Shown here piece by piece: positions 28,719-44,198 of a stretch of DNA of 64,000 nucleotides (within the stretch, counting starts at the first letter, position 1; every line of letters begins with the position of its first letter). A model generated the notes under the pieces. The model ran no database searches and was not told the origin of the DNA. It was given only the letters and a program-made list of their open reading frames with translations. Source of the stretch: Phycisphaerae bacterium (GTDB lineage Bacteria > Planctomycetota > Phycisphaerae > Sedimentisphaerales > Anaerobacaceae); contig JAAYBV010000070.1 of assembly GCA_012744475.1 (NCBI GenBank), positions 1 to 64,000 on the forward strand, written 5' to 3'. A program made the position numbers and the translations under genes.

Positions 28719-28719
28719 A

Positions 28720-30048
28720 TCAGCTCGCAGCCCCCTCGTCGCAGCGTTTGAACACGAGGGCGGCGGTCTGGCCGCCATGCGTGTAGCTGCAGCAGATCGC
28801 ATGGTCGATCCGACGCCGGACGGTGTCGGTGGAGATGCGCAGATGACAGCCGTCGAGCGGCCTGGTGAAGTTCCGGGCCGACGGGATCGTGGACGCCCCG
28901 ATGGCCTGCACGGCAGCGATTGCGTCCAACGCGCCCGAAGCGGCGCCGGTTGTGCTCAACATGCTCTTGGTCGGCCAGACGGTTACCTCCTTGGTTGCGT
29001 CCCCAAGGGCGGCGGCAATTCCTTTCGCCTCGGCCAGGTCGTCCTGCGGCAACCCCATTCCGTGCGGGATGAGCAGATCGACCTGTCGGGCGTCGAGGTC
29101 TGCGTCGTCGAGCGCCTTTGTGATGGCGATGCGGACTGCCTCGCCGTCCGGTTCGAGCCGTGCGTAGGCCGGATCGATACAGTGACTGTGCCCGATTCCT
29201 ACAAGTTCGGCCAGAATCGTGGCGCCGCGCCGACGGGCGTGGGAGAGACTCTCGAGCACGAGCACGCCGCCGGCCTCGCCGAAGACCGACCCGTGCGCAT
29301 TCGCATCGAAGGGCCGACAGGCCGCTCCGGGGCGATCGTTGCTGATGTTGTTCGTCCGTTCGAGCAGAATCTGCCGGACCATGATGACCGGATTGACCTT
29401 CGCTTCGGCGGCGCCGGCCAGAGCGATGTCGCTGTCGCCTCGTGCGATGACCTGGGCCGCCTCGGCAATCGCCAGGTGGGCGGACGCTTCCGCACAGGTG
29501 ATCGTGTTGCTGGGGCCTTGACAGTCATGGATGATGCCGATGTGGCAGGCCAGCATGTTCGGCAGATACTTCAGCAGCCACAGAGGGGTGACGTGCTCGA
29601 GGCCGACCCGGCCCCATTTGCGTATGTCGAAGCGGCCGTCGGTGGTGCTGACGGCTACGGCCGGCGCCAGCTCCACCATGTCGCAACTGATGATGCCCGC
29701 CCCCATATTGACACCCATACGGGTCGGGTCGATGCTGACGTGATCCGGATCGATTCCCTTGGTGACCAGCCCGCTGGCGGCCACGGCCTGTTGGGCCGCG
29801 ATGACCGCCAGTTCGATGTCCCGACACATCAGCTTGCAGCTCTTGCGGTATTTGCGCGGAACGTAGTCTTGAATGCTGTACGCGGGGACCTCGCCCGCCA
29901 ATTCACATCGCAGGCCCGCGGGATCAAACGCCTTGATGCGGCCGATGCCGCAGCGTCCCTCGCAAAGCCCGGCCCACATCTGATCGGCGCTGAGTCCCAA
30001 GGGGCTGACCGCCCCCAACCCCGTCACAACTACACGATCCGATTCCAT
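28720..30048 (-). CDS. KAS-like protein lacking the second catalytic His (chain-length-factor-like partner)
   Basis: The 442-aa KAS-fold protein retains Cys185 (NTITCAEAS), His329 (LLIPHGMGL) and Lys361. The ungapped alignment of TKSMLSTTGAASGALD with the KSMLGHLIAAAGAAE of the next gene shows the second active-site His replaced by Thr366. That His takes part in malonyl decarboxylation in KAS enzymes, so full condensing activity is doubtful. This resembles a chain-length-factor-type partner, although classic CLFs lose the Cys instead. ATG 30048 overlaps the upstream dehydratase stop (TGATG), with GGCGGAG about 9 bases before it. A TTG three bases earlier is a less likely start. Confidence 0.85.
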   Translation of the reverse strand: MESDRVVVTGLGAVSPLGLSADQMWAGLCEGRCGIGRIKAFDPAGLRCELAGEVPAYSIQDYVPRKYRKSCKLMCRDIELAVIAAQQAVAASGLVTKGIDPDHVSIDPTRMGVNMGAGIISCDMVELAPAVAVSTTDGRFDIRKWGRVGLEHVTPLWLLKYLPNMLACHIGIIHDCQGPSNTITCAEASAHLAIAEAAQVIARGDSDIALAGAAEAKVNPVIMVRQILLERTNNISNDRPGAACRPFDANAHGSVFGEAGGVLVLESLSHARRRGATILAELVGIGHSHCIDPAYARLEPDGEAVRIAITKALDDADLDARQVDLLIPHGMGLPQDDLAEAKGIAAALGDATKEVTVWPTKSMLSTTGAASGALDAIAAVQAIGASTIPSARNFTRPLDGCHLRISTDTVRRRIDHAICCSYTHGGQTAALVFKRCDEGAAS

Positions 30049-30551
30049 CAACTGGACTCCGCCGGCAGGGCGGCCCGGCCGGCCGCCTCCGAGACGACGT
30101 CACGCAACAGGGACGTGAACAACCCGGTGAAGACGAAGTTCTCCTCGGGGAATTTCTTGCCCGCCAGGTTCTGGTCGATGTGGCTGAACATCAGGTCGAT
30201 CTCCGCGATGAGCTGCGCGTCGCGCAGGATCCGGCCGGTGGTGCCGGCGGCTTCCGGCGCCAGCGAGCTGATCTGTGCCTCGATCCGCAGGCTGTCGCCC
30301 GGCCGGACGAAATCATGGAAGACGACCTTGCTGATCTTGGCCAGAACGACCTTCTCGCGAAAATCATTCGCCTGACCGACGAGGATTCCGGCGGTCTGCG
30401 CCATCGCTTCGATCATCAGGCATTCCGGCATGATCGGAAAACCCGGAAAATGGTCGTGCAGGTGCTCCTCGGCCAGCGTCACGTTCTTGACCGCGACGGC
30501 ACGACGACCACTCTCGAACTCCAGAAATTTGTCGATCCAGATCCAACGCAT
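30048..30551 (-). CDS. FabZ-like 3-hydroxyacyl-ACP dehydratase (hot-dog fold), second copy
   Basis: The 167-aa hot-dog protein has the FabZ active site HFPGFPIMPECLMIEAMAQ, with His34 and Glu48 in the canonical spacing; the usual PGV is replaced by PEC. The remainder (VLAKISKVVFHDFVRPGDSL, IAEIDLMFSHID) follows the FabZ fold, but the C-terminus is about 20 residues longer. It would dehydrate 3-hydroxyacyl groups on the cassette ACP. It lies 80 bases downstream of the ACP gene and its stop overlaps the next KAS start. It shares His and Glu position and several motifs (GRRxxAVKNV, LAEE) with the first dehydratase gene, so the two are paralogues. Confidence 0.85.
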   Translation of the reverse strand: MRWIWIDKFLEFESGRRAVAVKNVTLAEEHLHDHFPGFPIMPECLMIEAMAQTAGILVGQANDFREKVVLAKISKVVFHDFVRPGDSLRIEAQISSLAPEAAGTTGRILRDAQLIAEIDLMFSHIDQNLAGKKFPEENFVFTGLFTSLLRDVVSEAAGRAALPAESS

Positions 30552-30631
30552 GAGCGACCTACACCCGCCGTGACCGCAGGGTGCGCCCGGGCGGTCCTGC
30601 GGCGGTCCGTTGTGCCGGAAACGCCTGCGGC

Positions 30632-31027
30632 TCAGGCGCCGTTGATCTTGCCGTCGATGTAATTGACGATGGCATTGACGGTGAACAGATTGGCCAGCTT
30701 GTTGATGTCCGGGTTCTTTTCGAACTCGGTCAGATCCGTGTGAGGTACGCTGGCGCGCAGCTCTGCCAGACCTTGGGCCGTCAGTTTGCCGTTGCTGACG
30801 AGTTCGGGATTGTTCAGCAGACTCTCCGCGGGAAACAGCTCCTCTCGTGGCACCTTGATCCCAAACGCCTTTTCCAGGCGAAACACGATATCCAGGAAAT
30901 CGATGCTCTCGGCGCCGAGATCCCCCATGAGCGTGGCATCGGCAGTCACTTCCTCCTCGTCCGCCCCCAAGGCATCCACCAATACCTCCTGGACCTTCTG
31001 AAAAATCTCGTCGCGACTCATGGTCAT
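30632..31027 (-). CDS. Acyl carrier protein, enlarged
   Basis: The 131-aa carrier protein has its phosphopantetheine serine at Ser41 (GDLGAESIDFLDIVFRLEK). The usual DSL is ESI, and helices 1-3 fit the ACP fold. It is about 50 residues longer than housekeeping ACP, because an extra helical segment (LLNNPELVSNGKLTAQGLAE) precedes the last helix, as in specialised carrier proteins of aryl-polyene- or ladderane-like clusters. ATG 31027 is preferred over 31021 because GGAGG lies 11 bases upstream. It sits between two dehydratase genes. Confidence 0.88.
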   Translation of the reverse strand: MTMSRDEIFQKVQEVLVDALGADEEEVTADATLMGDLGAESIDFLDIVFRLEKAFGIKVPREELFPAESLLNNPELVSNGKLTAQGLAELRASVPHTDLTEFEKNPDINKLANLFTVNAIVNYIDGKINGA

Positions 31028-31086
31028 GGCTTCTGGTACCTCCGGTCCTGCAAACCTGTCAAAATCCGTTTCGTTACACGCGTGGT

Positions 31087-31560
31087 TCAGTTCTGCACAG
31101 ACAGCAGCCTGTATCGCTTCTTCATCTCTTCCTTGATCTGGGCGTCGACCGTGGCCCACGCGGGATTCCGCTCGGCCAGGTTGAAGTGCCTCAGACCGAA
31201 TCGGGCCTCCAGGATCGTCATGCCGTCGACCGTGCCGGAGCCGGTGAAGCTGCTGACGCGTTCCTCGATGGTCCTGGCTTCTACGGTGTACACCACCTGG
31301 GAGCCGGGAGCCAGGAAGCTTTTGTACTTGACGTTGCGCGCCAGTTCCAGCAACACCATGCTGTGGGCGAAGTCTTCCTTCGTCCGCACGAGCCAGCCGG
31401 CCGACTCTACCAGCCCTTCCAGCAACAACACGCCGGGCAAGACAGGAAACGTGGGAAAGTGATCGGCCAGATACTCTTCCGCCAGCGACACATTCTTGAC
31501 CGCACTAAGACGGCGCCCCGTCTCCAACGACACGATCTTGTCAATCAGTACGAATTTCAT
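31087..31560 (-). CDS. FabZ-like 3-hydroxyacyl-ACP dehydratase (hot-dog fold), first copy
   Basis: The 157-aa protein has the FabZ motif HFPTFPVLPGVLLLEGLVES (His34, Glu48). The central helix carries ESAGWL instead of AQxxG, so it is divergent from housekeeping FabZ. It is probably the first gene of the five-gene lipid cassette. ATG 31560 begins with the family start MKFVLIDKIVSLETGRR, and a minus-strand promoter candidate lies about 30-60 bases upstream. It is divergent from the GNAT gene. Confidence 0.85.
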   Translation of the reverse strand: MKFVLIDKIVSLETGRRLSAVKNVSLAEEYLADHFPTFPVLPGVLLLEGLVESAGWLVRTKEDFAHSMVLLELARNVKYKSFLAPGSQVVYTVEARTIEERVSSFTGSGTVDGMTILEARFGLRHFNLAERNPAWATVDAQIKEEMKKRYRLLSVQN

Positions 31561-31593
31561 TCCACTAACGCCATCCGGCCCCAAATCCGCGCT

Positions 31594-31622
31594 ATTGTAG
31601 TAGCCTCGAACGCTTTTGCCAG
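31594..31622 (-). promoter_or_regulatory. Candidate promoter of the lipid cassette
   Basis: On the minus strand CTGGCA (31622-31617) and TACAAT (31599-31594) are 17 bases apart. The predicted start near 31587 gives a leader of about 27 bases before ATG 31560. Confidence 0.4.
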
Positions 31623-31669
31623 TCCTTTTTTCGGTTTTTTGCGTACGGTCGGGCATCCCGGAATCGCCG

Positions 31670-31698
31670 TTGCAGGAAAACCGCACGGTCGGTATACT
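31670..31698 (+). promoter_or_regulatory. Candidate promoter of the GNAT gene
   Basis: TTGCAG (31670-31675) and TATACT (31693-31698) are 17 bases apart. A start near 31705 would leave only about 4 bases before ATG 31709, so the mRNA would be nearly leaderless. No ribosome site is visible. Confidence 0.4.
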
Positions 31699-31708
31699 GC
31701 GCGGCCAT

Positions 31709-32173
31709 ATGAAAGTGCGAAACGCGAAGATTCCGGATGCCCGGGCGATTTCCGCCCTGATCAACTGTTACGCCGAGCACGACAAGATGCTCTTCCGCTC
31801 GCTGGCGGAGATCTACGAGAACCTCCAGATGTTCCTGGTGGCGGAGGAGGACGACACGGTGGTCGGCTGCTGCGCTCTGGAGATCATCTGGTCGGACCTG
31901 GCGGAGATCAAGTCGTTGGCGGTGGCGCCGGCCCACAAGGGCCAGGGACTCGGACGGGCTCTGGTCGAGGCTGCGGTCGAGCGGGCCAGAGACCTCGGCG
32001 TGCCTCGCGTTTTCGCGTTGACGCTGGAGCCGCGGTTCTTCGAGCGCATCGGATTCGCCGTCGTACCCAGAGAGGACCTTCCCATGAAGGTCTGGAGCGA
32101 TTGTGCCCGGTGTCCGAAACAGCAGGAATGCGACGAAATCGCGGTGGCCAGATCGCTGGCCAATGGGTCCTGA
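31709..32173 (+). CDS. GNAT N-acetyltransferase, ArgA/N-acetylglutamate-synthase-like
   Basis: The 154-aa single-domain acetyl-CoA-dependent transferase has the V/RxGxGxG-type acetyl-CoA loop HKGQGLGRALV and the preceding strand EIKSLAVAP. The late strand contains ALTLEPRFFERIGFAVVPRE. The WSDCARCPKQQECDE ending is typical of the short N-acetylglutamate synthase-like family, which may acetylate glutamate for arginine synthesis. No arginine genes are adjacent, so the substrate is not certain. The start is placed at ATG 31709, where homology begins; upstream codons carry no family features. It converges on the ABC permease with 15 bases between stops. Confidence 0.82.
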   Translation: MKVRNAKIPDARAISALINCYAEHDKMLFRSLAEIYENLQMFLVAEEDDTVVGCCALEIIWSDLAEIKSLAVAPAHKGQGLGRALVEAAVERARDLGVPRVFALTLEPRFFERIGFAVVPREDLPMKVWSDCARCPKQQECDEIAVARSLANGS

Positions 32174-32188: not shown

Positions 32189-33154
32189 TCAGCCGACCTG
32201 GCGTCTCTGGAACAGCGCCACGGCCAGGGCGAGGATGCCGGTGGCGTAGCATAGAGCGTACAGGCCGCCGACGAGGATGTACTTGGCCGGGACGGCGCTG
32301 CCCTCGTAGATCGCGTCGCTGATCCAGAAGACCTGGAGGTTGGGCACGAGGAACCGACCGATCCTGGCCCACAGATGGGTTGCGGCGAAGCGGCCGAAGA
32401 CGTAATCGCTGGTCAGTCCCAGAAGGAACAGACCGACGCACGCCGAGAGGGTCACCACGGTGTTGAAGCGGGACGAGATCGCCACGGCCAAAGCGGCGAT
32501 GATGACGGCCGCCAGAAACAGCAGGATCGAGCCGTACACGTCCAGCGTGTTGATTCCGTTCTTGGCCGGGTTAAACTGCCAGTCGCGATCGATAAACGCG
32601 AGAAAGACCATGCCGAACGTGGCGAGTATGGCCAGGACGACCACCGCCGTCGAGGTGAACTTCCAGTCATACGTGTAATTGAAGAAGGTGCTCAGCAGTA
32701 TGGTGGTCACCGCGATCACTGCCGCGGTGCCGACGACGGTCCAGTCGTGCGTGTCCGAGGCGGTCGCGAGAACTCCGTGCCGGATCGACATGAGCAGGGC
32801 AATGGTGCAGATGTAATGCGCGACGCCGACCGCTGCGACCACGCCGAGGAACTTGGCCGCCACGAACAGGGGACGCTGGACCGGCTTGGTCAGCACCGTC
32901 AGAATCGTCTTGTTTTCCAGCTCTACCGCCACCGCGCCCGAGGCGGAGAAGATTGCCACGAACAAGCTGGCCAGAAACAGCGTAGACAAGCCTATCTCGC
33001 GTAAGAGCTTGTTGTCGTCGTCCATGGTATACATGGACAGGGACGGGCTGAGCAGGAACAACAGAAGGGCGACCCCAATGATGACGGCGTACACGGGCTG
33101 GCGAATGGTTTCAACGAACGTGTTCCGAGCGATGGCGACGAGCTTATTGAGCAT
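32189..33154 (-). CDS. ABC-2 type permease without adjacent ATPase
   Basis: The 321-aa protein has about six membrane spans (AVIIGVALLLFLLSPSL, LFLASLFVAIFSASGAVAV, VAAVGVAHYICTIALLMSI and others). It carries the coupling segment VELENKTILTVLTKPVQRPL, shared in type with the permease at 40983 (RQIYTVATKPIRRYQFLLGK). No ATPase gene adjoins it, so it may use the ATPase at 39752 or a distant one. ATG 33154 has AGGA upstream; additional in-frame upstream codons lack membrane homology. The substrate is unknown. Confidence 0.85.
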   Translation of the reverse strand: MLNKLVAIARNTFVETIRQPVYAVIIGVALLLFLLSPSLSMYTMDDDNKLLREIGLSTLFLASLFVAIFSASGAVAVELENKTILTVLTKPVQRPLFVAAKFLGVVAAVGVAHYICTIALLMSIRHGVLATASDTHDWTVVGTAAVIAVTTILLSTFFNYTYDWKFTSTAVVVLAILATFGMVFLAFIDRDWQFNPAKNGINTLDVYGSILLFLAAVIIAALAVAISSRFNTVVTLSACVGLFLLGLTSDYVFGRFAATHLWARIGRFLVPNLQVFWISDAIYEGSAVPAKYILVGGLYALCYATGILALAVALFQRRQVG

Positions 33155-33357
33155 GTGTGGTCCTGACGTTTTCACGCATCCGTCCCTGTCTTTTCGGCGG
33201 CCGGCACGTGGGGGCACATTTTTTCGTGATTGTCACTACACGACACTGAGATTCCGGGTTATAGTACCCAGCCTCTTGTTTGTAAAGGGCGAAGGTCTTC
33301 GATGAGTAGATACTGGCACAGCGGATTTTTGTTCGTCGTCGGGAGCCGAAGCGCAAA

Positions 33358-35427
33358 ATGACAGCATCGTCCAAACGTCCCGAACACGTGGCCTGGGCTT
33401 GCCTGGTCTTAAGCCTGATCTTCTTTGGCATCACTTTCTTTCTCGGTCGCTGGAGCGGGTACTTCGCGGTCTCGGCCGTGGCCTGGCAGATTCTCGGCGC
33501 GGCGCTGATCTGGCTGGTTCTCGCCATCCAGTTTCACCAGCGAGGCCTTGCCGAGCAAGAGCGTCTGGACATGACGCAACTGGCCCAGGACAAGAGCGGC
33601 TCGACCCTGTTCGAAGGCAAGGGAGAACGGGCGACGCTGTTTGCGGCCGCCCAGCGCCGCCTCGACCTGCTGGAGAAGTGGTTCATCCCTATCTTTGGCG
33701 TGCTCATCGCGGTCTATGAGATCGCGCTGGGCCTCTATCTGCTCCGGGCTCTTGGCCGGGCTCCATCGACGACGCAGCAGCCGCTGGTCTGTGCCATTCT
33801 GATGACCGTGGTGGCGTTCGTCAGTTTTCTGCTGTCGCGATACGCCACGGGAATGTCCGCCGAGCCGGCCTGGAAGCCGCTGCGGGCGGGCGGCAGCTAT
33901 CTGCTCGGTGTCGCGGTGGTGTGCTTCGCCCTGGCCCTGTGCCTGGCCGGGACGCACTTTCAGTTTCACGTCCCCCTGTTGGTCGTGGGGTACGTGGTGC
34001 CGATTCTGCTGATCCTGCTGGGCGCTGAGACGGCTTTGAACACCGTGCTGGACATCTACCGTCCGCGGCTGAAAGGCCAGTACAGCCGGGCGGCGTTCGA
34101 CAGCCGCCTGCTCGGCATAATCAACGAGCCTGGGGGCGTCTTCCGCAGTCTGGCGGCCGCGATCGACTACCAGTTCGGGTTCCAGGTTTCTCAGACGTGG
34201 TTCTACAAGCTCCTGGAGAAGGCGGTCGTGCCTCTGATTCTGTTCTCGGCGCTGACCCTGTATCTGGCCAGTTGCATCGTCGTGGTGTTGCCCAACGAGG
34301 AGGCGATCGTAGAGCGGTTCGGCAATCCGCTGACCGGCGACGGGCAGGTTCGCGATTTCAAGCCGGGACTTCACCTCAAGCTGCCCTGGCCGATCGACAT
34401 CGCCTACAAGTATCCCACCAAGCAGATTCTGGAAATCCACGTCGGATACGTTCCCAAGACCGACCCCAAGACGGGCCGAGTGCTGACGGAACCTTCGCTT
34501 CTGTGGGGCCAGACCCACTACGAGAGCGAGTTCAGCTTCCTGGTCGCCAGCGAACAGACCGGCGAGGCGCTGGGAGAGGAGGCGGTGCCGGTCAGCCTGG
34601 TGAAGGCGAACATCCCAATCCAGTATCGCATCAAGGATCTTTACGCATACATCTATGGACACAGCGACCCGGCGAGATTGCTGGAGGACATTGCCTACCG
34701 CGAACTCACACATTTTGCCGCCAGTGCCGGGATTGAGGTCGATGTCGGCGGCTCGGGCCAGGCAGCCAGCGAGAGCCTTCTGGGCGCCGGTCGAACCAAG
34801 GCCAAAGAGATCCTTACCGATAGGATTCAGAAGGCCGCCGACGACCAGGGGCTGGGCATCGAGGTGGTGTTCCTGGGCGTGCAGGGCATCCACCCGCCGC
34901 CCGAGGTGGCGCCCGACTATCAAGCGGTCATCGGCGCCGTTCAAAAGAAGTACGCCCTCGTCCTTAACGCCGAGGCGGACCGAAACGCAATCCTGGGCAC
35001 GCTGATCGGTTCCGTGGACAGGGCTTACGAGCTGGCCGACCTGGCCGCGCGGTATCAGACGGCCCAGGCGGAGGGACGCGCCGAAGACGTCGAGCGGCTG
35101 GGCAAACAGTTCGACGAGGCGCTGGCGCAGGCCAAAGGAGACATCTTCAGGACCCTGCGAGAGGCCCAGAGCTACGCCTTTGAGAAAGCCACGCTGGCCC
35201 GCGCGACCGGCGAGCGGTTCGCCGGGCAGGTCGCCGCCTACAAGGCAGCCCCGAAAATCTACTTGCAGGAACAACGTCTGGCGGCGCTGGAAGAGGTGTT
35301 GCCGGACGTGCGCAAATACATCATCGCTGTCGATCCCAACGACCGGCAGGTCATCATCATGGACCTTCAGGACAAGCCGCCGACCAATCTGTTGGACATG
35401 ACGGGCTTAGAGGAGACTATCCGATAA
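33358..35427 (+). CDS. SPFH/band-7 protein with long multi-span N-terminus (HflK-like)
   Basis: The 689-aa protein's first 320 residues contain about seven hydrophobic spans (for example AWACLVLSLIFFGITFFLG, PIFGVLIAVYEIALGLYLL, LVVGYVVPILLILLG, LILFSALTLYLASCIVVVL). An SPFH domain follows (VVLPNEEAIVERFGNPL, FKPGLHLKLPWPID) with a coiled coil, then a terminal beta segment. Canonical HflK has a single anchor, so the multi-span front end is unusual. SPFH proteins form membrane cages that regulate FtsH or organise lipid domains. It overlaps the hflC-like start by 1 base and is the first of three SPFH genes in a row. Confidence 0.82.
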   Translation: MTASSKRPEHVAWACLVLSLIFFGITFFLGRWSGYFAVSAVAWQILGAALIWLVLAIQFHQRGLAEQERLDMTQLAQDKSGSTLFEGKGERATLFAAAQRRLDLLEKWFIPIFGVLIAVYEIALGLYLLRALGRAPSTTQQPLVCAILMTVVAFVSFLLSRYATGMSAEPAWKPLRAGGSYLLGVAVVCFALALCLAGTHFQFHVPLLVVGYVVPILLILLGAETALNTVLDIYRPRLKGQYSRAAFDSRLLGIINEPGGVFRSLAAAIDYQFGFQVSQTWFYKLLEKAVVPLILFSALTLYLASCIVVVLPNEEAIVERFGNPLTGDGQVRDFKPGLHLKLPWPIDIAYKYPTKQILEIHVGYVPKTDPKTGRVLTEPSLLWGQTHYESEFSFLVASEQTGEALGEEAVPVSLVKANIPIQYRIKDLYAYIYGHSDPARLLEDIAYRELTHFAASAGIEVDVGGSGQAASESLLGAGRTKAKEILTDRIQKAADDQGLGIEVVFLGVQGIHPPPEVAPDYQAVIGAVQKKYALVLNAEADRNAILGTLIGSVDRAYELADLAARYQTAQAEGRAEDVERLGKQFDEALAQAKGDIFRTLREAQSYAFEKATLARATGERFAGQVAAYKAAPKIYLQEQRLAALEEVLPDVRKYIIAVDPNDRQVIIMDLQDKPPTNLLDMTGLEETIR

Positions 35428-36323
35428 TGAAGAAGATCGCTGTTCCCGTACTGATTGCCGTCATCTTCGCCATCATGGCGCTCTATCTCGTTTCGTTTCA
35501 GGTCCGCGAGACGGAGTCGGCGTTCATCACGCGATTCGGCAAGCCGCTGGAAGACCGCGAGATCACCCGGCCCGGCCTCTACTTCAAGTGGCCCGCGCCG
35601 ATCGAACGCGTCCACCGGTTCGACTCGCGCATGAGGGTCCTCGATGTCCCGCCGACTGAGACCACGACGAGAGAGCAGATCTCCATCATCGTGACGACGT
35701 ACGTCGTCTGGCGGGTGGCCGAGCCGCTGAAGTTCCTCAACGCCGTGGGCACGGTCGCCGACGCCAACGACGCCATTCGGTATCGGCTCAACAACGCCCA
35801 GAACCGCGTGATCGGCCAGCATACCTTCAGCGAGTTCGTCAACAGCGATCCCGAGAGGATCAAGCTCGCCGACATTCAGGTGGAGATGCTCAAAGACCTT
35901 CAGGAGCCGGTGCGAAACGATTACGGCATCGAGATCAAGACGCTCGGGATCAAGCAGCTCAAGATCAGCGAGGAGGTCACGAAGGACGTCTTCGAGCGGA
36001 TGCGGGCCGAGCGTCGCCGCCGGACCGAGGCGACCATCGCACAAGGCAACGCGGCAGCCACCACGATCCGGACCGATGCGGACGTCAAGAGAACGGCGTT
36101 GCTGGCGGCGGCCGAAGGACGGGCCAAGGCGATCCGCGGCCGAGGTGACGCCGAGGCCGCCCAGTACTACAAGATGCTGCAAGAGGCGCCGGAACTGGCC
36201 ATGTTCCTGCGTAACCTCGAGGCGTTGCAGGCGCTGGGCGAGAATTCAACGATCGTCATCCCGAGCGACGTCGAGCCGTTCAAGTACCTTCGGGAAAGGC
36301 CGTCGCTGGAACCGTCGAATTGA
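35427..36323 (+). CDS. hflC: SPFH protein, HflC-like
   Basis: The 298-aa protein has one N-terminal membrane anchor (VPVLIAVIFAIMALYLVSF), then the SPFH domain (ETESAFITRFGKPL, RPGLYFKWPAPIERVHRFDS). The C-terminal coiled coil carries ERMRAERRRRTEATIAQGNA and AEGRAKAIRGRGDAEAAQYY. This is the standard HflC layout and length. The ATG overlaps the stop of the upstream SPFH gene (TAATG). Together with HflK-like partners it would form an FtsH-associated or raft-like cage; no ftsH is present in the window. Confidence 0.88.
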   Translation: MKKIAVPVLIAVIFAIMALYLVSFQVRETESAFITRFGKPLEDREITRPGLYFKWPAPIERVHRFDSRMRVLDVPPTETTTREQISIIVTTYVVWRVAEPLKFLNAVGTVADANDAIRYRLNNAQNRVIGQHTFSEFVNSDPERIKLADIQVEMLKDLQEPVRNDYGIEIKTLGIKQLKISEEVTKDVFERMRAERRRRTEATIAQGNAAATTIRTDADVKRTALLAAAEGRAKAIRGRGDAEAAQYYKMLQEAPELAMFLRNLEALQALGENSTIVIPSDVEPFKYLRERPSLEPSN

Positions 36324-36368
36324 CCCGACGCCGGATGCATCGTTCACTGCGTTTGTCTCTGAGGATGT

Positions 36369-37712
36369 ATGGCACATAGACACGAACACGCACATGGGCA
36401 CAGCCACGACGAGCCGCACGAGCACGACACGGCGCCGACGCGCGAGCTGGATGCAGCGGGAAAGTCGCTCTCCGATGCGCTGCGGCTGAGCTTCTTCATT
36501 CTCAAGATCATCATGATCGTGCTGGTCATTGCCTTTCTGATCTCGGGCTTCAAGACGGTCGACTCCGGGGAAAAGGCGATGGTCCTGCGCTTCGGCGCCA
36601 TTCGCGGCGTAGGCGAAGAGCGCGTCCTGGGGCCCGGCTGGCACTGGGTTTTCCCCTATCCCATCGACGAGTTGGTCAAGATTCCGGTCGAGGCGCAGAT
36701 CAGCCTGCCCATCACCTCGTTCTGGTACAAGCAGACGCGCAATGACATCCTGGGCGAAGGGCCCAAGCCGCGCAATCTCGTGCCGGAGAAGCTCAATCCG
36801 CTGACCGAAGGATACAGCTTGACCCGGAGCCGGGCGGACGAGGTCCGCACGGTCGTTGCACAGGGCATTTCAGGCCGGGGGGCCGCGGACAGCGAAGGCA
36901 GCGACTACAGCATCGTTCATACGCAATGGAAGATCGATTACCAGATCGGCAACATCGAACAGTTTTACACGAATGCTTACGTTCCGGCGGCCAGGCCCGG
37001 GCAGATCTATTTCGACATCATGAAGGAGTCGATCACGCCGTTGCTCAAGAGCGTGGTCGAGGACTCGGTGGTCACGGCCATGGTCCAATACACCATCGAT
37101 GAAGCGCTTCAGAGCACCGACACCATTCCGCGTCACGTCGAACAACTCACTCAGCAGAAGCTCGACGCCATCGACAGCGGCATCCGCGTGACCAAGGTCC
37201 AGCTCGTGGCGGCCACGTGGCCGCAGCAGGTGGACGCCGCCTTTCAGGCTTACATCGCCGCCAGCCAGAAGAGCGGCTTGGCGATCAGTGACGCGCGAAA
37301 CCATGCCGAACAGACGCTGACCGATGCCGCCGGACAGGTGGCCGAATCGCTGTACAGCGCCCTGATGGCCTCCGACACGCCGGAGGATCAGTTGGAGACC
37401 CTGTGGTCGCAGGTGGCCGGCCGGGCTCAGAACACCGTCGCCCAGGCCCAGGCCTATCGAACCAAGGTGGTCGAAGACGCCAAGGCCAGCGCCACCTACC
37501 TGACCAGCCTCCTGCCCGAGTATCGAAAGTGGCCCGAGTTGGTAGCCCAGGGGATCTACTTCGATGCGATCCAGAAAGTACTCGACAACGCCGACGAGAA
37601 GTTCATTCTGGACCCGACCGAGATTGCCCGGGGGCGGGAGGTCCGCATTCTGATCAACCGGGACCCCACCCCCAAACCCAAGGCAACGGAACCGACACCG
37701 ACGATGAGATAG
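36369..37712 (+). CDS. hflK: SPFH protein, HflK-like with His-rich N-terminus
   Basis: The 447-aa protein begins with a cytoplasmic His-rich tract (HRHEHAHGHSHDEPHEHD) that could bind Zn, Ni or Cu. One membrane helix follows (IIMIVLVIAFLISGF), then an SPFH domain (VDSGEKAMVLRFGAIRGVG, LGPGWHWVFPYPIDELVKIP) and a long coiled coil. The His tract is not a general HflK feature, and a shorter one also starts the P-type ATPase encoded next. It lies 45 bases after the hflC-like gene and 36 before the ATPase. Confidence 0.83.
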   Translation: MAHRHEHAHGHSHDEPHEHDTAPTRELDAAGKSLSDALRLSFFILKIIMIVLVIAFLISGFKTVDSGEKAMVLRFGAIRGVGEERVLGPGWHWVFPYPIDELVKIPVEAQISLPITSFWYKQTRNDILGEGPKPRNLVPEKLNPLTEGYSLTRSRADEVRTVVAQGISGRGAADSEGSDYSIVHTQWKIDYQIGNIEQFYTNAYVPAARPGQIYFDIMKESITPLLKSVVEDSVVTAMVQYTIDEALQSTDTIPRHVEQLTQQKLDAIDSGIRVTKVQLVAATWPQQVDAAFQAYIAASQKSGLAISDARNHAEQTLTDAAGQVAESLYSALMASDTPEDQLETLWSQVAGRAQNTVAQAQAYRTKVVEDAKASATYLTSLLPEYRKWPELVAQGIYFDAIQKVLDNADEKFILDPTEIARGREVRILINRDPTPKPKATEPTPTMR

Positions 37713-37748
37713 ACCGTCGCACTCCCGTCAAAGGACGAGAACGTAACT

Positions 37749-39695
37749 ATGGCTCATGAGCATTTACACCTGCAGCACGACACCGCCGAGGAGACCCGAG
37801 GCCAGCAACTGCGCGTCAGTCTCGCGCTGTTGGGGACTCTGGCGGGCGGGGTCCTCCTGATCAACAGCGGCATCGGCCGCTTCATCTACGGACCCGACAG
37901 CTTCAACACCGAGATCTTCGCCATGCTCGGCGCGCTGCTGCTGGGGCTGCCGATCGTCGTCCATGCGATCCTGAGCCTGATTCGAGGCGAATCGCACATG
38001 GATGAGCTGGCGGCGCTGGGCATCGTGGCGGCGTTCGCCACCGGCGAATATGTGGCGGCCGGACTGATCGGCTTCTTCATGCTGCTCAGCGAACTGATCG
38101 AGACCCGCACCGCGCTGGGCGCGCGTGCGTCCATCGAGTCGCTGATCAAATTGACGCCGACCAGGGCGAATCTCGTCAGCGCCGACGGCGTCGAACAGGA
38201 GGTCAAGGTCAGCGCGCTGAAGCCGGGGGACCTGATCCGTGTCCGTCCGGGTGACAACATCCCGGCCGACGGCGAGGTGGCCACCGGCCTGAGCTCCGTC
38301 AACGAAGCGACGATCACCGGCGAGTCGCTGCCCGTCGACAAGGTTCCGGGCATGCAGGTCTTCGCCGGCACGAACAACCTGACCGGCGCGATGGACATCC
38401 GGGTCACCAAGGCCGGCCACGACACGACTCTCGGCAAGGTCCAGTCGCTGATCATGCAGGCCGAGCACACGAAGATCCCGATCATGCGGATCATCGACCG
38501 CTATATCACGTGGTATGTGCCGACCATCCTGATGATCGCGGCAATCGTTCTGTTCTTCACGCGGGACATCAATCAGGCGATCACCATCCTGGTCATCTCC
38601 TGCCCTTGTGCGATCATTCTGGCGACTCCGACGGCGATGGTGGCGGCGATTTCCGCCGCCGCAAGGTTGGGCGTACTGGTCAAGAACGTGGCCGACCTGG
38701 AGATCGCCGGCAAGATGACGGCGCTGGTGTTCGACAAGACGGGCACCGTCACGACCGGGCGGCTCTACGTGACGAAGCTGACGCCCGCCGAGGGGGTCGA
38801 GCCGGCCGAGCTGCTGGCCGAAGCGGCGGCGGCGGAACAGTTGAGCAAGCACCCGGCGGCCCGCGCCCTGCACGACGTCGCCAAGGAGGCCAATCTGTCG
38901 CTGCCGGTCGCAGAAGGCTTCCAGGAAACACCGGGCAAGGGTGTGACCGCGACCGTCAATTCGTCGCGGATCCTGGTCGGCCGGGAGACGTTTCTCAAGG
39001 AGAACGGCGTTGATTTTGCCGGTATCACCGACCCTGCCCTGGATGAAGAGCAGGGCTTCAGCACGTTGTACGTGGCCAAAGACGCACGGTGTATCGGCTG
39101 GATCGGTCTCCAGGACAAGACGCGTCCCGAGGCCCAGAGGGCGGTCAAGGAGCTGGTCGACATCGGCATCAAACGGGTGACCATGCTCACGGGCGACCGC
39201 AGCGAAGTCGCCAATCGCGTCGCCGGCGAACTGGGCTGCACCGACTACAAGGCTCACTGTCTGCCGCAGGACAAGCTGGCCATCGTCGAGCAGATCAAAC
39301 GCGACGGCCACACGGTGGTCGTGGTCGGCGACGGCATCAACGATGCGCCGGCCCTGGCCGCGGGCGATCTCGGCATCGCCATGGGAGCGGCCGGAAGCGA
39401 CGTCGCGATCAACTCAGCCTCCATCGCCCTGATGAACAACGACCTGCGCCGCATCCCATTCCTGGTCCAGGTTTCGCGCCGGACCCGCCGGGTCATCAAC
39501 CAGAACCTGGGTTTTGGCATCGCGTTCATCGTGTTTGGCATCTCTCTGGCCAAGTTCATCCCACCCAGCGTAGCGGCGTTCCTGCATTTTGCCAGTTCGC
39601 TGGTGGTGGTGTTCAACAGCGCCCGGCTAGTGCGGTACGGCGAAGACCTCGACCACGATTCACGTCTCGTTGGATCGCCCTCGTTGGAGGCGTGA
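37749..39695 (+). CDS. P1B-type heavy-metal translocating ATPase
   Basis: The 648-aa metal pump has the signature SCPCAIILATPTAMVAA (CPC motif), TGES (ATITGESLPVDK), the phosphorylation site DKTGTVTTGR, the P1B His-Pro (LSKHPAARAL) and GDGINDAPALAAGD. No CxxC HMA domain precedes the membrane part; instead the N-terminus is His-rich (MAHEHLHLQHD). The last span (SVAAFLHFASSLVVVFNSAR) does not fit the classic Cu or Zn/Cd signatures, so metal specificity is open. It is the fourth gene in the SPFH block and is followed 56 bases later by an ABC ATPase gene. Confidence 0.9.
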   Translation: MAHEHLHLQHDTAEETRGQQLRVSLALLGTLAGGVLLINSGIGRFIYGPDSFNTEIFAMLGALLLGLPIVVHAILSLIRGESHMDELAALGIVAAFATGEYVAAGLIGFFMLLSELIETRTALGARASIESLIKLTPTRANLVSADGVEQEVKVSALKPGDLIRVRPGDNIPADGEVATGLSSVNEATITGESLPVDKVPGMQVFAGTNNLTGAMDIRVTKAGHDTTLGKVQSLIMQAEHTKIPIMRIIDRYITWYVPTILMIAAIVLFFTRDINQAITILVISCPCAIILATPTAMVAAISAAARLGVLVKNVADLEIAGKMTALVFDKTGTVTTGRLYVTKLTPAEGVEPAELLAEAAAAEQLSKHPAARALHDVAKEANLSLPVAEGFQETPGKGVTATVNSSRILVGRETFLKENGVDFAGITDPALDEEQGFSTLYVAKDARCIGWIGLQDKTRPEAQRAVKELVDIGIKRVTMLTGDRSEVANRVAGELGCTDYKAHCLPQDKLAIVEQIKRDGHTVVVVGDGINDAPALAAGDLGIAMGAAGSDVAINSASIALMNNDLRRIPFLVQVSRRTRRVINQNLGFGIAFIVFGISLAKFIPPSVAAFLHFASSLVVVFNSARLVRYGEDLDHDSRLVGSPSLEA

Positions 39696-39751: not shown

Positions 39752-40990
39752 ATGGATTACGCCGTTGAGACAATCTCGCTGACGAAGGTCTTCTCCGACT
39801 GGTGGGGCCGTGCCAAGGTTTACGCGGTCGACGACCTCAATCTCCAGATTCGGCACAACGAGGTCTTTGGCCTGCTGGGACCGAACGGATCGGGCAAGAC
39901 GACCACGATCAAGATGCTGCTGGGCCTGCTGCACCCGACCAAAGGTCACGCGCTGCTGCTCGGCGGCGACGGCACCGACCCGAAGATCAACACGCGAATC
40001 GGCTTCCTTCCGGAGGAGTCGTATCTGTACCGGTTTCTCAATGCCCGCGAGACCCTCGATTTTTACGGGCGGCTCTTCGGGCTGGCCCCCAAGGTCCGCA
40101 AGATGCGGATCGAGGCCCTGCTGGAGATGGTCGGCCTCAAAGCGGTGGCCAGCCGGCCGATCGGCACGTACTCCAAAGGCATGGCCCGTCGCATCGGTCT
40201 GGCCCAGGCGCTGATCAACGATCCCGACCTGCTGATCCTCGACGAGCCGACGACCGGCCTGGACCCCATCGGGACCCGGCAGATCAAAGACCTGATCCTC
40301 AAGCTGGCCGAACGGGGCAAGACGATTCTGCTATGCAGTCACCTGCTGGCCGACGTCGAGGACGTGTGCGACCGAATCGCGATTCTCTACGGGGGCAGAG
40401 TCCAGGCAGAAGGCCAGGTGCGTGAGCTTCTGCAACAGAACGGCAAGCGGCAGATCGTCACCAGCGCCGTCAGTGAGACGGCGGTCGAGAGGATCGGGCG
40501 CATTCTCGAAGAAGAACACGCCGAGTGGGAAATCACCAGCCCGATGGAGAAGCTCGAAACGTTCTTCATCAATACGGTGGTCGAGGCGCAACAGCAGGCC
40601 AGGCCGACCAGCGGCGCCGTCAGCACGACGCAGATCGGCGACTTCCTGATGGCGGAGAAGTCCCAGGCGAGCATTCTCGACAAGCTCGTTTCGGCGCCGG
40701 TGTTGCAGGACCAGCCGGCCGGGGCGCCCCGCACGGAGTCGATCACGCCGGTGGAAACGCATGCGCCCCAACCCGACCGGGACCTGCTCAGCAAACTGAC
40801 CAGGGCCGCCACCCCTTCGGAGACCGAGCATGTGGCGCCCGTGAAACCGTCGGCCGTCGATGTGCCCGAATCCCGTGACACCGGGCAGGTCAACAAGAGC
40901 GTTCTCGACGCCTTGACGGGCAAGACCGCACCGCCCACGACGGAGAAGCCCCACGAACGACCGAAGGACGGAGAGGTCGGCCATGAGTAA
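39752..40990 (+). CDS. ABC transporter ATP-binding protein with long C-terminal tail
   Basis: The 412-aa ATPase has Walker A (GPNGSGKTTT), a Q-loop-region match (IGFLPEESYLY), the ABC signature (YSKGMARRIGLAQ), Walker B (LLILDEPTTGLDP) and the H-switch (LLCSHLLADVED), all in the first 225 residues. The remaining 185 residues first hold a regulatory-type domain (ILEEEHAEWEITSPMEKLE), then a low-complexity tail rich in Pro/Thr/Glu. The tail is longer than usual for ABC-2 partners. The gene overlaps the following permease by 8 bases, which makes these the transporter pair. Confidence 0.9.
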   Translation: MDYAVETISLTKVFSDWWGRAKVYAVDDLNLQIRHNEVFGLLGPNGSGKTTTIKMLLGLLHPTKGHALLLGGDGTDPKINTRIGFLPEESYLYRFLNARETLDFYGRLFGLAPKVRKMRIEALLEMVGLKAVASRPIGTYSKGMARRIGLAQALINDPDLLILDEPTTGLDPIGTRQIKDLILKLAERGKTILLCSHLLADVEDVCDRIAILYGGRVQAEGQVRELLQQNGKRQIVTSAVSETAVERIGRILEEEHAEWEITSPMEKLETFFINTVVEAQQQARPTSGAVSTTQIGDFLMAEKSQASILDKLVSAPVLQDQPAGAPRTESITPVETHAPQPDRDLLSKLTRAATPSETEHVAPVKPSAVDVPESRDTGQVNKSVLDALTGKTAPPTTEKPHERPKDGEVGHE

Positions 40991-42356
40991 GATCTGGGCG
41001 ATTGCCGTCAACACGGTCCGCCAGGCCATGCGCATGAGGATCGCGGTGATCTTCATCGCGATGTTGCTGATTCTGCTGCCGGTGATGGGGCTGACGGCGA
41101 CCGGGGACGGCACTCTGAAGGGCCGGCTCCAGACGTTCGTCAGCTATGGGCTGTCGTTGACCAGCCTGCTGCTGTGCCTGCTGACGATCATCGTCGCGAC
41201 CTACACGATCACCAGCGACATCGAGCACCGCCAGATCTATACCGTGGCCACCAAGCCGATCCGCCGCTATCAGTTCCTTCTCGGCAAGCTGGTGGGCGTG
41301 ATCGTTCTGGACGCGGCCCTCGTGACGCTCTTTGCCGGCATCGTGTACGCCGTGGTAGTGTTCCTGCCCGGTTTCCACGACGTCTCGAACGACACGCTGC
41401 GGCAGATCGACAACGAGTTCTTCACCGCCCGTGCCAGCCTCAGTCCTCCGGCGCCCGATGTACGCGAAGAAGTCCAGACGCTGTACGATCAGTTGGAGAA
41501 GACCGGGCAGCTCCGCGAGGCGTACCCTACATTGCCGCCCGAGGGGATTCTCAAGGAACTGACCTTGCGCAAGCAGTTGGAGAAACGGGCGGCGGGGGTG
41601 GGAGAGGGCCTGATGTGGGAGTTCGAGAAGATCCGGCCGCTCGACCCGAACCAGAGTCTATTCATCCGGTTCAAGTACGACGTGGCGGCCGAGCCGACCA
41701 ACGGCCAGGTCTACGCCCGCTGGCAGATCGGCGACCTGCGGCAGTTTCGTTACGGCATGAACTTCAAAACCCCGATCTGGCCTGAGGATCGTGCGGACCC
41801 GGTTCGCACGTTCCGCGAGATCGAGGTCCCGGCGCAGGTCATTGCCGATGACGGATACCTGGCGGTGGGGTTTCTCAACGTGCCGCTGAACGACACGACG
41901 GTGATCTTCCCGCTCGAAGACGGGTTGGAGCTGCTCTACAAGGCCGACACCTTCACGGCCAACTTCATCCGCGGGGTGCTGCTGATCCTGTTCCGGTTGA
42001 TCTTCCTGGCCTGCCTCGGAGTGCTGGCGGCGAGCTTTCTTTCGTTTCCCGTAGCGATCCTGTTCTGTCTGATGATCTTCTTCACGGGCACCATCAGCGG
42101 CTTCGTGCTCGAATCGTTCGAGTTTCTCAGCGCCAGCGTGAGCGAGGTGTATTCGTATACGATCGGGGCTCTGGTCCGGCTGCTGCCGCGATTCGACAAG
42201 TACAACCCGACCAGCTTCCTGGTGCCCGGCCGCCTGATCGCCTGGTCGTTCCTGGCGCAGGTGGCGCTGTTCATGGTCTGCATCAAGGGCCTCCTGCTGT
42301 TGGTGCTGGCCCTGATCATCTTCAGCTTCCGCGAGCTGGCCCGAATCATTGTGTGA
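40983..42356 (+). CDS. ABC-2 type permease
   Basis: The 457-aa protein's first span (RIAVIFIAMLLILLPVMG) is followed by a coupling segment (SDIEHRQIYTVATKPIRRYQ). A large extracytoplasmic insertion of about 180 residues comes next, then further spans (GVLLILFRLIFLACLGVLAA, FPVAILFCLMIFFTG, AQVALFMVCIKGLLLLVLAL). The insertion (for example DVAAEPTNGQVYARWQIGDL) is larger than in plain ABC-2 permeases and could contact envelope partners. It is translationally coupled to the ATPase and 33 bases upstream of the unknown 602-aa gene. Confidence 0.85.
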   Translation: MSKIWAIAVNTVRQAMRMRIAVIFIAMLLILLPVMGLTATGDGTLKGRLQTFVSYGLSLTSLLLCLLTIIVATYTITSDIEHRQIYTVATKPIRRYQFLLGKLVGVIVLDAALVTLFAGIVYAVVVFLPGFHDVSNDTLRQIDNEFFTARASLSPPAPDVREEVQTLYDQLEKTGQLREAYPTLPPEGILKELTLRKQLEKRAAGVGEGLMWEFEKIRPLDPNQSLFIRFKYDVAAEPTNGQVYARWQIGDLRQFRYGMNFKTPIWPEDRADPVRTFREIEVPAQVIADDGYLAVGFLNVPLNDTTVIFPLEDGLELLYKADTFTANFIRGVLLILFRLIFLACLGVLAASFLSFPVAILFCLMIFFTGTISGFVLESFEFLSASVSEVYSYTIGALVRLLPRFDKYNPTSFLVPGRLIAWSFLAQVALFMVCIKGLLLLVLALIIFSFRELARIIV

Positions 42357-42389: not shown

Positions 42390-44198
42390 ATGCGTGGACG
42401 TGACATTCTCATCATGCTCGTGTGCCTGTCGCTGGCCGGCGGTCTGCTCTATACGGCGGGCACACAGCTCGATTACATCAACACGCAGCGCCAGACGATG
42501 GGCCTGGTGGTGAACGAGCCGGTGGAGAACCTGCCGCCTTCGCTGGCCTTCGCCACCGTGGCGATGGGCGCGTTTCGCGGCCTGGTCGTCGACATCCTCT
42601 GGATGCGGGCCGACAAGCTGAAGGAGGAAGGGCAGTTCTTCGATGCCCGGCAGCTCGCCGAGTGGATCACGACGCTCCAGCCCCGGTTTCCGGCCGTCTG
42701 GGAGTTCCAGGCCTGGAACATGGCGTACAACATCTCCGTCGCCATCCCCGCTTCGCAGCCCGAGCAGCGCTGGCGGTGGGTCAAGAACGGCTACGAACTG
42801 CTGCGCGACAAGGGCATCCCCACCAATCCCAAGGCGGTCCAGCTCTACCGGGAACTGGCGAGGATCTTCCAGCACAAGCTCGGTGGCGTCTCCGACGACG
42901 TCCACAAGTACTACAAACTCCAGTTGGCGGAAGCCATCGGCCTGCTGCTCGGGTCGGAGGACAACGGGCTGCCCGCCGACGACAACGCGTTCTACGAGGC
43001 CCTGATCGGGACGCCGTCCGAATGGGCTCAGATCGTCGCCGATCCGAATGTAGCTCCGTTCATCCGGGCGCTTCAGGAGGTCGGTGAGCCGTTCACCAGC
43101 GAACAGCCGTTCGTACAGAACTATCTGGCGCTGCGCCGCAACGCGTCGCGCTTTCCGCAGGCTGCGTCGGATGTTGTGGATCGTTTTCGGGGCACGGCGG
43201 CATTGAAACGATTCGATCTGTTTGCGAAGTCTTACGAGCTGCGCAACACCTGGAAGCTGGAGCCGGCTCGCATGCACCAGGTCAGCCAGGAGTATGGGCC
43301 GATCGACTTCGCCGACCCCAACGTGCACTTCCCCATGGATTGGCGGCACCCGGACGCGCACGCCATCTATTGGGCGATCAAAGGGCTCAGCGTCGCCAAG
43401 GAAAAGAACGATGCCGAGACGGAGCGATACCAGACGAACACGCAGCGCATCGTCGCGCACAGCCTTCAGAATCTCTTCCGATACGGCAAGCTCATCATTC
43501 TCTCGCGTCCGGCCGAAGCGCTCGATCCGGACAGCCCCGCGGCCAAATCCACCTCGCCGGCAATACCCAAAGACGTCTTTCTCAGTCCGGACCTGCGGAT
43601 CTTCAATTCGTACCACAAGGCCGTGCTGGCAATCATTGCCGGCTACGAAGACGACCGCACCACCAAAGAATCGCTTGAGAACGGCCATCGCAACATGCTC
43701 AAGAACGCCGTCCTCTCGTTCTATCAGGCCGGACTGAGGGGAGAGGCCCTGAAGATTTTCAACCAGTTGCGGAAACGCTATCCCTTGAGAGAGTTCAACG
43801 TCTCGCTGGAGGAGTTCGCGCTGAAGCGCTGGAGAGAGGAGTTGAGCGGTTTCGGCATCGACGACGCCCGCGAGCAGATCGTGATGCTGCTCAGCGAGGG
43901 GTACTACCTGTACGCCGTCCGCGACGATGAGGCCGCCGCCGGGCGAGAGCAGTTGGCTCAGCAGGCGTACGACTTCTACAACACGACGAACGAGCCGGAG
44001 TTTCGCATTGACCTGCCCCCGATGCCCGTGCTACGATACGTCGCGCTCGGTCAGTTCCTCAACAGCGGGGCGTATCCGCCCCACATTCGGCAGGGTCTGC
44101 TGAATCGGATCCAGATCGAAAAGCCCGAGCTGTACAAGCAAATGGAACAGACCGAGGCGCAGTTGCAGCAAATGCAGGAGCAGCAGGGAACGCGGTGA
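42390..44198 (+). CDS. Membrane-anchored helical protein of unknown function
   Basis: The 602-aa protein has an N-terminal membrane anchor or uncleaved signal (ILIMLVCLSLAGGLLYTAG). A long helical body follows with TPR-like spacing (ILWMRADKLKEEGQFFDARQ, YKLQLAEAIGLLLGSED, SFYQAGLRGEALKIFNQLRK) and a Gln-rich C-terminal coiled coil. I do not recognise a named family. The gene directly follows an ABC-2 transporter pair with a short gap, so it may be its periplasmic accessory subunit. ATG 42390 has only a weak ribosome site. Confidence 0.72.
   Translation: MRGRDILIMLVCLSLAGGLLYTAGTQLDYINTQRQTMGLVVNEPVENLPPSLAFATVAMGAFRGLVVDILWMRADKLKEEGQFFDARQLAEWITTLQPRFPAVWEFQAWNMAYNISVAIPASQPEQRWRWVKNGYELLRDKGIPTNPKAVQLYRELARIFQHKLGGVSDDVHKYYKLQLAEAIGLLLGSEDNGLPADDNAFYEALIGTPSEWAQIVADPNVAPFIRALQEVGEPFTSEQPFVQNYLALRRNASRFPQAASDVVDRFRGTAALKRFDLFAKSYELRNTWKLEPARMHQVSQEYGPIDFADPNVHFPMDWRHPDAHAIYWAIKGLSVAKEKNDAETERYQTNTQRIVAHSLQNLFRYGKLIILSRPAEALDPDSPAAKSTSPAIPKDVFLSPDLRIFNSYHKAVLAIIAGYEDDRTTKESLENGHRNMLKNAVLSFYQAGLRGEALKIFNQLRKRYPLREFNVSLEEFALKRWREELSGFGIDDAREQIVMLLSEGYYLYAVRDDEAAAGREQLAQQAYDFYNTTNEPEFRIDLPPMPVLRYVALGQFLNSGAYPPHIRQGLLNRIQIEKPELYKQMEQTEAQLQQMQEQQGTR

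Follow-up and report, generated by a model that had tools for sequence, protein, structure and literature searches.

A conserved planctomycete gene cluster of three SPFH proteins and a metal pump shares its order with the Pseudomonas aeruginosa hmtA locus

The Pseudomonas aeruginosa locus PA2439-PA2434 brings together three SPFH genes, PA2436 and the gene for the P1B-type ATPase HmtA (PMC4542158, PMC8531726). HmtA has been reported as a zinc and copper importer, a description that according to a review needs confirmation, and its overproduction led to higher cellular zinc and copper (PMC10393844). In a znuA mutant PA2434-PA2439 are upregulated, and the Zur site there is weak (PMC4542158). The PA2439 promoter is shifted by Zur binding, though hmtA mRNA is unresponsive to added zinc (PMC8531726), and zinc depletion tends to raise the levels of the PA2434-PA2439 proteins (PMC11761036). 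Within the papers that could be searched, work on zinc and work on SPFH proteins at this locus hardly refer to each other. Going by gene numbers, we take the SPFH genes of the hmtA locus to be those called PaFlo5-6-7 in strain PA14. Deletion of this three-SPFH operon in P. aeruginosa PA14 had slight effects only, in a study that makes no mention of HmtA or Zur (PMC13086221). Here we describe a cluster with the same core order in a Phycisphaerae bacterium of the Planctomycetota, on a 64,000-nucleotide stretch (contig JAAYBV010000070.1 of assembly GCA_012744475.1, positions 1 to 64,000; the window); a search limited to an open-access library found no paper on the planctomycete cluster.

The core consists of four plus-strand genes separated by short gaps: S1 (33358-35427, 689 amino acids), an HflK-like SPFH protein fused to a six-helix domain of predicted CDF fold; S2 (35427-36323, 298 amino acids), an HflC-like SPFH protein whose ATG overlaps the S1 stop; S3 (36369-37712, 447 amino acids), an HflK-like SPFH protein with a His-rich N-terminus; and P1B (37749-39695, 648 amino acids), a heavy-metal ATPase by TIGR01525, which phylogeny places in an SPFH-linked clade. 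The original prediction of three SPFH genes ahead of a metal pump at 33358-39695 was correct in coordinates and content. All three SPFH products pass the Pfam Band_7 (PF01145) cut-off, the SPFH/Band_7 domain of S1 lying at 34282-34980 (plus strand). Among NCBIfam families, S2 passes HflC (TIGR01932, 147.1 bits against 134.4), and HflK (TIGR01933) is the best family for S1 and S3, yet both fall under its cut-off (89.5 and 103.8 bits, respectively, against 159.4). By order and gene families the core matches PA2439-PA2435 (HflK, HflC, HflC-family, HmtA), whereas the window adds two ABC-2 permeases, an ABC ATPase, a helical-repeat protein and a long S3 His tail. We judge it probable, at roughly 0.58, that S1-S2-S3-P1B is a dedicated HmtA-type transition-metal device composed of an SPFH ring or dome, a pump and a CDF-fold dock.

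The SPFH-SPFH-SPFH-P1B order is deeply conserved across genomes: some 100 loci were compared, from Planctomycetota and from members of Verrucomicrobia and Lentisphaeria, and most of them keep it. Further members exist in Verrucomicrobia, Lentisphaeria and Kiritimatiellae. In the window's relatives, among them Sedimentisphaerales and Phycisphaerae metagenome-assembled genomes, the unit has eight genes: an ABC permease, S1-S2-S3, P1B, an ABC ATPase, a second permease and a helical-repeat protein. These four accompanying genes had been missed by the original prediction. A second set of loci (for example L044, L048, L049, L060 and L069) has P1B beyond the permease, and more distant planctomycetes (L150-L161) have S1-S2-S3-P1B without adjoining ABC or repeat genes. 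The identical four-gene order is found on plasmids of Rhizobium, Klebsiella, Paraburkholderia and Burkholderia, where the annotation reads, in order, HflK; HflC or SPFH; SPFH or HflK; and P-type ATPase (L204 by profile), and several of the plasmid records that S1 matched rank best for P1B as well. An arrangement unique to the window's genome is thus ruled out, the SPFH triad with a metal pump being widespread. Some loci (L056, L059, L073, L076 and L140) have the triad, the ABC genes and the repeat protein with no adjacent P1B; these loci mirror the four-gene form, which keeps P1B alone, and what stays constant appears to be the SPFH triad. L055 is cut by its contig end.

In an even sample of 294 genomes of the phylum, with S1 matches taken at E <= 1e-12 and neighbours read by hand, about 73 carried S1; in at least 52 of these, a same-strand P1B of the SPFH-linked kind lies no more than about 10 kb away. 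Of the other S1-bearing genomes, six run into a contig end, and about 15 have no P1B or none listed. For genomes of several megabases, chance would bring P1B and S1 together about once at most; the gene order is not due to chance. In the phylum sample of locus L135 (Verrucomicrobia), S1 matched in 68 of 145 genomes (E <= 1e-15), the weakest of these matches covering the SPFH part only.

P1B is the only ATPase in the window's genome over the TIGR01525 cut-off (554.8 bits against 346), and Pfam shows E1-E2 ATPase and HAD domains and no HMA domain, as originally described. The catalytic motifs TGES, CPx, DKTGT, HP and GDGxNDxP are intact in P1B and in nearly all relatives. The metal motif of its fourth transmembrane span, SCPCA (38598-38612, plus strand), retains CPC in 82 of 97 relatives, and the last-span motif LHFASS (39582-39599, plus strand) retains its His in 89 of the 97; in the alignment this His coincides with sCoaT H657, which is invariant among P1B-4 pumps and has been proposed to act as an internal counterion (PMC8880997). 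The last span that had been singled out as atypical is therefore real but not a one-off, and SPFH-linked pumps have in common CPC plus H-x-x-[GS]-[ST]. P1B is like the P1B-4 ATPase sCoaT (7qbz, PMC8880997) in lacking an HMA domain and in the last-span His aligned with that of HEGxT, but differs in having CPC rather than SPC in the fourth span, in lacking Glu after the His and in its separate position in the tree. That tree held 63 sequences, including 37 SPFH-linked pumps and 20 controls (CopA, ZntA/CadA, P1B-4 and others): 36 of the 37, planctomycete and proteobacterial alike, fell into one 42-row clade with support of 100/99, and every control fell outside it. The locus thus combines the order HflK-like, HflC-like, SPFH, P1B with a pump from the clade of proteobacterial linked P1Bs. 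A plain P1B-4 pump is ruled out by CPC instead of SPC, HFASS instead of HEGxT and the position outside the P1B-4 control branch, and a CopA or ZntA type by motifs and tree. Six unlinked planctomycete pumps also fell inside the clade, several with degenerate metal motifs. Same-clade relatives with such motifs (CPS, CPG or VPA) occur in L223-L226 (Phycisphaerae-like), L150, L155 and L156, in some of which the last-span His is also changed; going by sequence, a changed cargo or a loss of metal transport is possible for them.

P1B pumps export in general, and given its ordinary catalytic motifs the window's pump could likewise be an ordinary detoxifying exporter, the SPFH proteins doing no more than stabilising it as a lipid-microdomain scaffold, with neither import nor a chamber; cytoplasmic His tails would suit donors to an exporter. 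We consider this quite unlikely because the P. aeruginosa counterpart is induced by zinc starvation and described as an importer, and because the P1B motif set is unlike that of known exporters.

S1 has seven predicted spans, six plus one, in agreement with the approximate number first proposed. Its AlphaFold2 model (35 sequences) comprises six N-terminal helices, a seventh helix and the SPFH domain, with a pLDDT of 76 overall and mostly 80-92 within helices. Foldseek placed HflK, HflC and stomatin on top, followed by many CDF transporters, and VIA-align superposed the model on YiiP (8f6k) with a Z score of 20.8 at 2.7 Å over 201 residues, spanning 2-239; its first 15 rows were all CDFs, above the stated helical-bundle background. 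A CDF zinc-transporter fold (YiiP, ZnT) is predicted for the six N-terminal helices, residues 2-239 (33361-34074, plus strand) forming a YiiP/ZnT-like membrane domain in the structure alignment. This region resembles YiiP, ZnT1, ZnT3 and ZnT7 in its six-helix fold, with Z up to 20.8, but it is fused to an SPFH domain, lacks metal ligands and has no match to PF01545 (CDF) among 35 members searched against Pfam. Across 113 homologues, neither residues 30-59 nor residues 165-192 include a conserved Asp or His, the equivalence of these columns with the transport-site ligand positions of CDF transmembrane helices 2 and 5 being judged by eye; His60, at a helix end, is present in 49 of the 113, and Glu224 is invariant. 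The absence of transport-site ligands rules out S1 as an active CDF transporter, and with its metal site lost the domain would serve as a membrane dock or regulator rather than as a transporter. S1 homologues on proteobacterial plasmids have a six-plus-one or similar hydrophobic pattern, and one ordinary CDF is encoded elsewhere in the window's genome.

The SPFH domains of the triad match those of the Escherichia coli HflK-HflC-FtsH complex (7vhp, 7wi3, 9cz2), from which the window differs in having three subunits instead of two, no ftsH linkage, six extra helices on S1, and an S1 and S3 that stay below the HflK cut-off. By inspection, the other SPFH genes of the window's genome are stomatin/slipin-like (one beside an NfeD-like gene) or flotillin-like, so the cluster holds the genome's only HflK/HflC homologues; ftsH is present on a different contig, which rules out a link to FtsH by neighbourhood. 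An alternative interpretation is that the triad is the HflK/HflC of these bacteria, acting on FtsH in general membrane-protein quality control, with P1B and the ABC proteins as co-expressed neighbours or clients and with no metal task in common. The lack of any other HflK/HflC alongside FtsH in the genome, the passing HflC score of S2 and the persistence of the triad without adjacent P1B in some genomes speak for it, but we consider it unlikely because the order with P1B recurs in proteobacteria that usually have a separate hflK-hflC (as P. aeruginosa does; PMC13086221), the P1B clade is distinct and tracks the triad, S1 carries the predicted CDF fold and ftsH is unlinked.

In the dedicated metal device that we prefer, HflC-like S2 would pair with HflK-like S1 and S3 to build an HflK/HflC-like ring or dome on the inner membrane, around or beside the P1B pump, whose cargo would most likely be zinc or copper. 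S1 would anchor the assembly through its CDF-fold six-helix domain without a metal site, and the pump's cytoplasmic His-rich N-terminus, with that of S3 in some lineages, would buffer metal near the pump. In one PVC branch, which includes the window, the operon would also have gained a type V (NosFY/ABCA-like) ABC transporter together with a membrane protein of helical repeats. A more specific version, in which the dome serves a pump instead of a protease, the inactivated-CDF/SPFH protein S1 docks P1B inside and metal enters or leaves a closed chamber in the periplasm, is a conjecture that we hold tentatively and with the odds against it.

Several observations weigh against the dedicated metal device. 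Retention of the triad and ABC genes without adjacent P1B in several Phycisphaerae-like genomes (L056, L059, L073, L076) means that the triad is not strictly dependent on the pump, and the second Cys or the last-span His of P1B has been lost in some lineages (CPG with Gln in L150, L155 and L156). Comparison of S1 with local CDFs by sequence profile was no better than controls (hhalign E 0.06), and because this was not significant the CDF assignment rests on predicted structure. The kinship of the window's P1B with HmtA is suggested by published annotation and gene order, and a search for a Zur box 5' of S1 gave no clear excess of the full palindrome over shuffled sequence.

The original prediction drew attention to His-rich starts in S3 (MAHRHEHAHGHSHDEPHEHD, 36369-36428, plus strand) and in P1B (MAHEHLHLQHD, 37749-37781, plus strand), and both are real. 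The topologies of HflK and of P1B pumps would place these N-termini in the cytoplasm. Among 102 relatives, the first 45 residues of S3 contain no more than one His in 61, at least four in 26 and at least eight in 11; the P1B N-terminus is better kept, with at least four His in 48 of 95. S1 and S2, like the ABC ATPase and the repeat protein, average 0.4-0.7 N-terminal His, in line with the background expectation of 0.77. The tails thus belong specifically to S3 and P1B, as a recurrent, not a constant, part of the system. His counts in S3 and P1B are uncorrelated (rho -0.08). With a missing or trivial S3 tail in 61 of the 102 and a strong one in only 11, metal passing by His tails cannot be the core mechanism, and it is likewise ruled out as a common one. 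The proposal of a metal-handling membrane assembly loses that element and otherwise gains from the conserved order, the P1B clade, the CDF-type fold predicted for S1 and the zinc-responsive order in P. aeruginosa; a non-conserved neighbourhood together with orthologues devoid of His tracts, which would have spoken against it, was not what we found.

The first of the accompanying genes, an ABC-2 type permease of about eight spans (32189-33154, minus strand), is divergent to S1, exceeds the PF12679 cut-off and adjoins S1 in 92 of the compared loci; its ATG at 33154 was chosen from the alignment, and the PF12679 query ran to 33169. The ABC ATPase (39752-40990, plus strand; PF00005), conserved in place, resembles ABCA proteins and NosF, and the second ABC-2 type permease (40983-42356, plus strand), with a large insert between spans, resembles NosY at a profile E of 8.7e-6, a match that is weak evidence because few type V structures of such a kind have been solved. 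Together the ATPase and second permease match the NosFY/ABCA type V ABC transporters, from which the window differs in having two unlike permease subunits, one with the large insert, and in that no nos genes were noticed beside the cluster; NosDFY-like copper maturation is ruled out, the similarity being generic to type V ABC transporters. The last gene (42390-44198, plus strand), also conserved in place, encodes a membrane-anchored protein that is modelled by AlphaFold2 as an alpha-helical repeat (pLDDT 84) and has weak TPR matches; Foldseek returned nothing under E 0.001, with TPR-type proteins just above. Its N-terminal region (about residues 40-190), which matches proteins in 198 of the 294 phylum genomes, many outside the cluster, is on sequence grounds an unnamed planctomycete membrane family.

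ABC and repeat genes remain with the triad where P1B is gone (L056, L059, L073, L076), and the nucleotide-binding domain is close to those of ABCA lipid exporters. The main machine in the window's branch might then be an ABC exporter made up of two unlike permeases, one ATPase and the repeat protein. It would carry a lipid or some envelope component and use the triad as a platform, and P1B would supply metal to the exporter or its product. This is very improbable, as other planctomycetes and proteobacteria keep P1B beside the triad without ABC genes.

A conserved promoter/operator-like element lies 5' of S1 (33256-33289, plus strand), the pattern TTATA[GT]T[AG] with TTGTAAAG recurring in 32 of 76 intergenic regions. 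It contains GTTATA and forms an inverted repeat around a TATAGT/TATATT box, followed by TTGTAAAG, with arms reading GGGT..ACCC in the window and TTGT..ACAA in many relatives, and is probably a promoter plus operator. Three FUR-family proteins are encoded in the genome. Upstream of a GNAT gene, 27378-31764 holds fatty-acid-synthesis-like genes (two beta-ketoacyl synthases, two FabZ-like dehydratases and an acyl carrier protein), a neighbourhood of a kind that recurs in many close relatives, and a UvrD/Rep-type helicase gene directly 3' of the cluster (44218-46386) is kept in close relatives.

The cluster is real and conserved, and a known locus that has been studied little explains part of it. 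What is new is how widely the association occurs, the distinctness of the P1B clade, the fusion of a CDF fold to an SPFH protein predicted in S1, and the extension by ABC genes. The cluster bears on two questions, the job of bacterial SPFH cages beyond holding FtsH and the working of HmtA, a P1B pump described as an importer, and the retention of the triad with one P1B clade across several phyla, together with the predicted CDF fold of S1, ties them to each other. The expectation is an SPFH-pump complex with a metal phenotype. If the pump does sit within an SPFH dome, this would account for HmtA behaving unlike other P1B pumps and would give HflK/HflC-type cages a second, FtsH-independent job.

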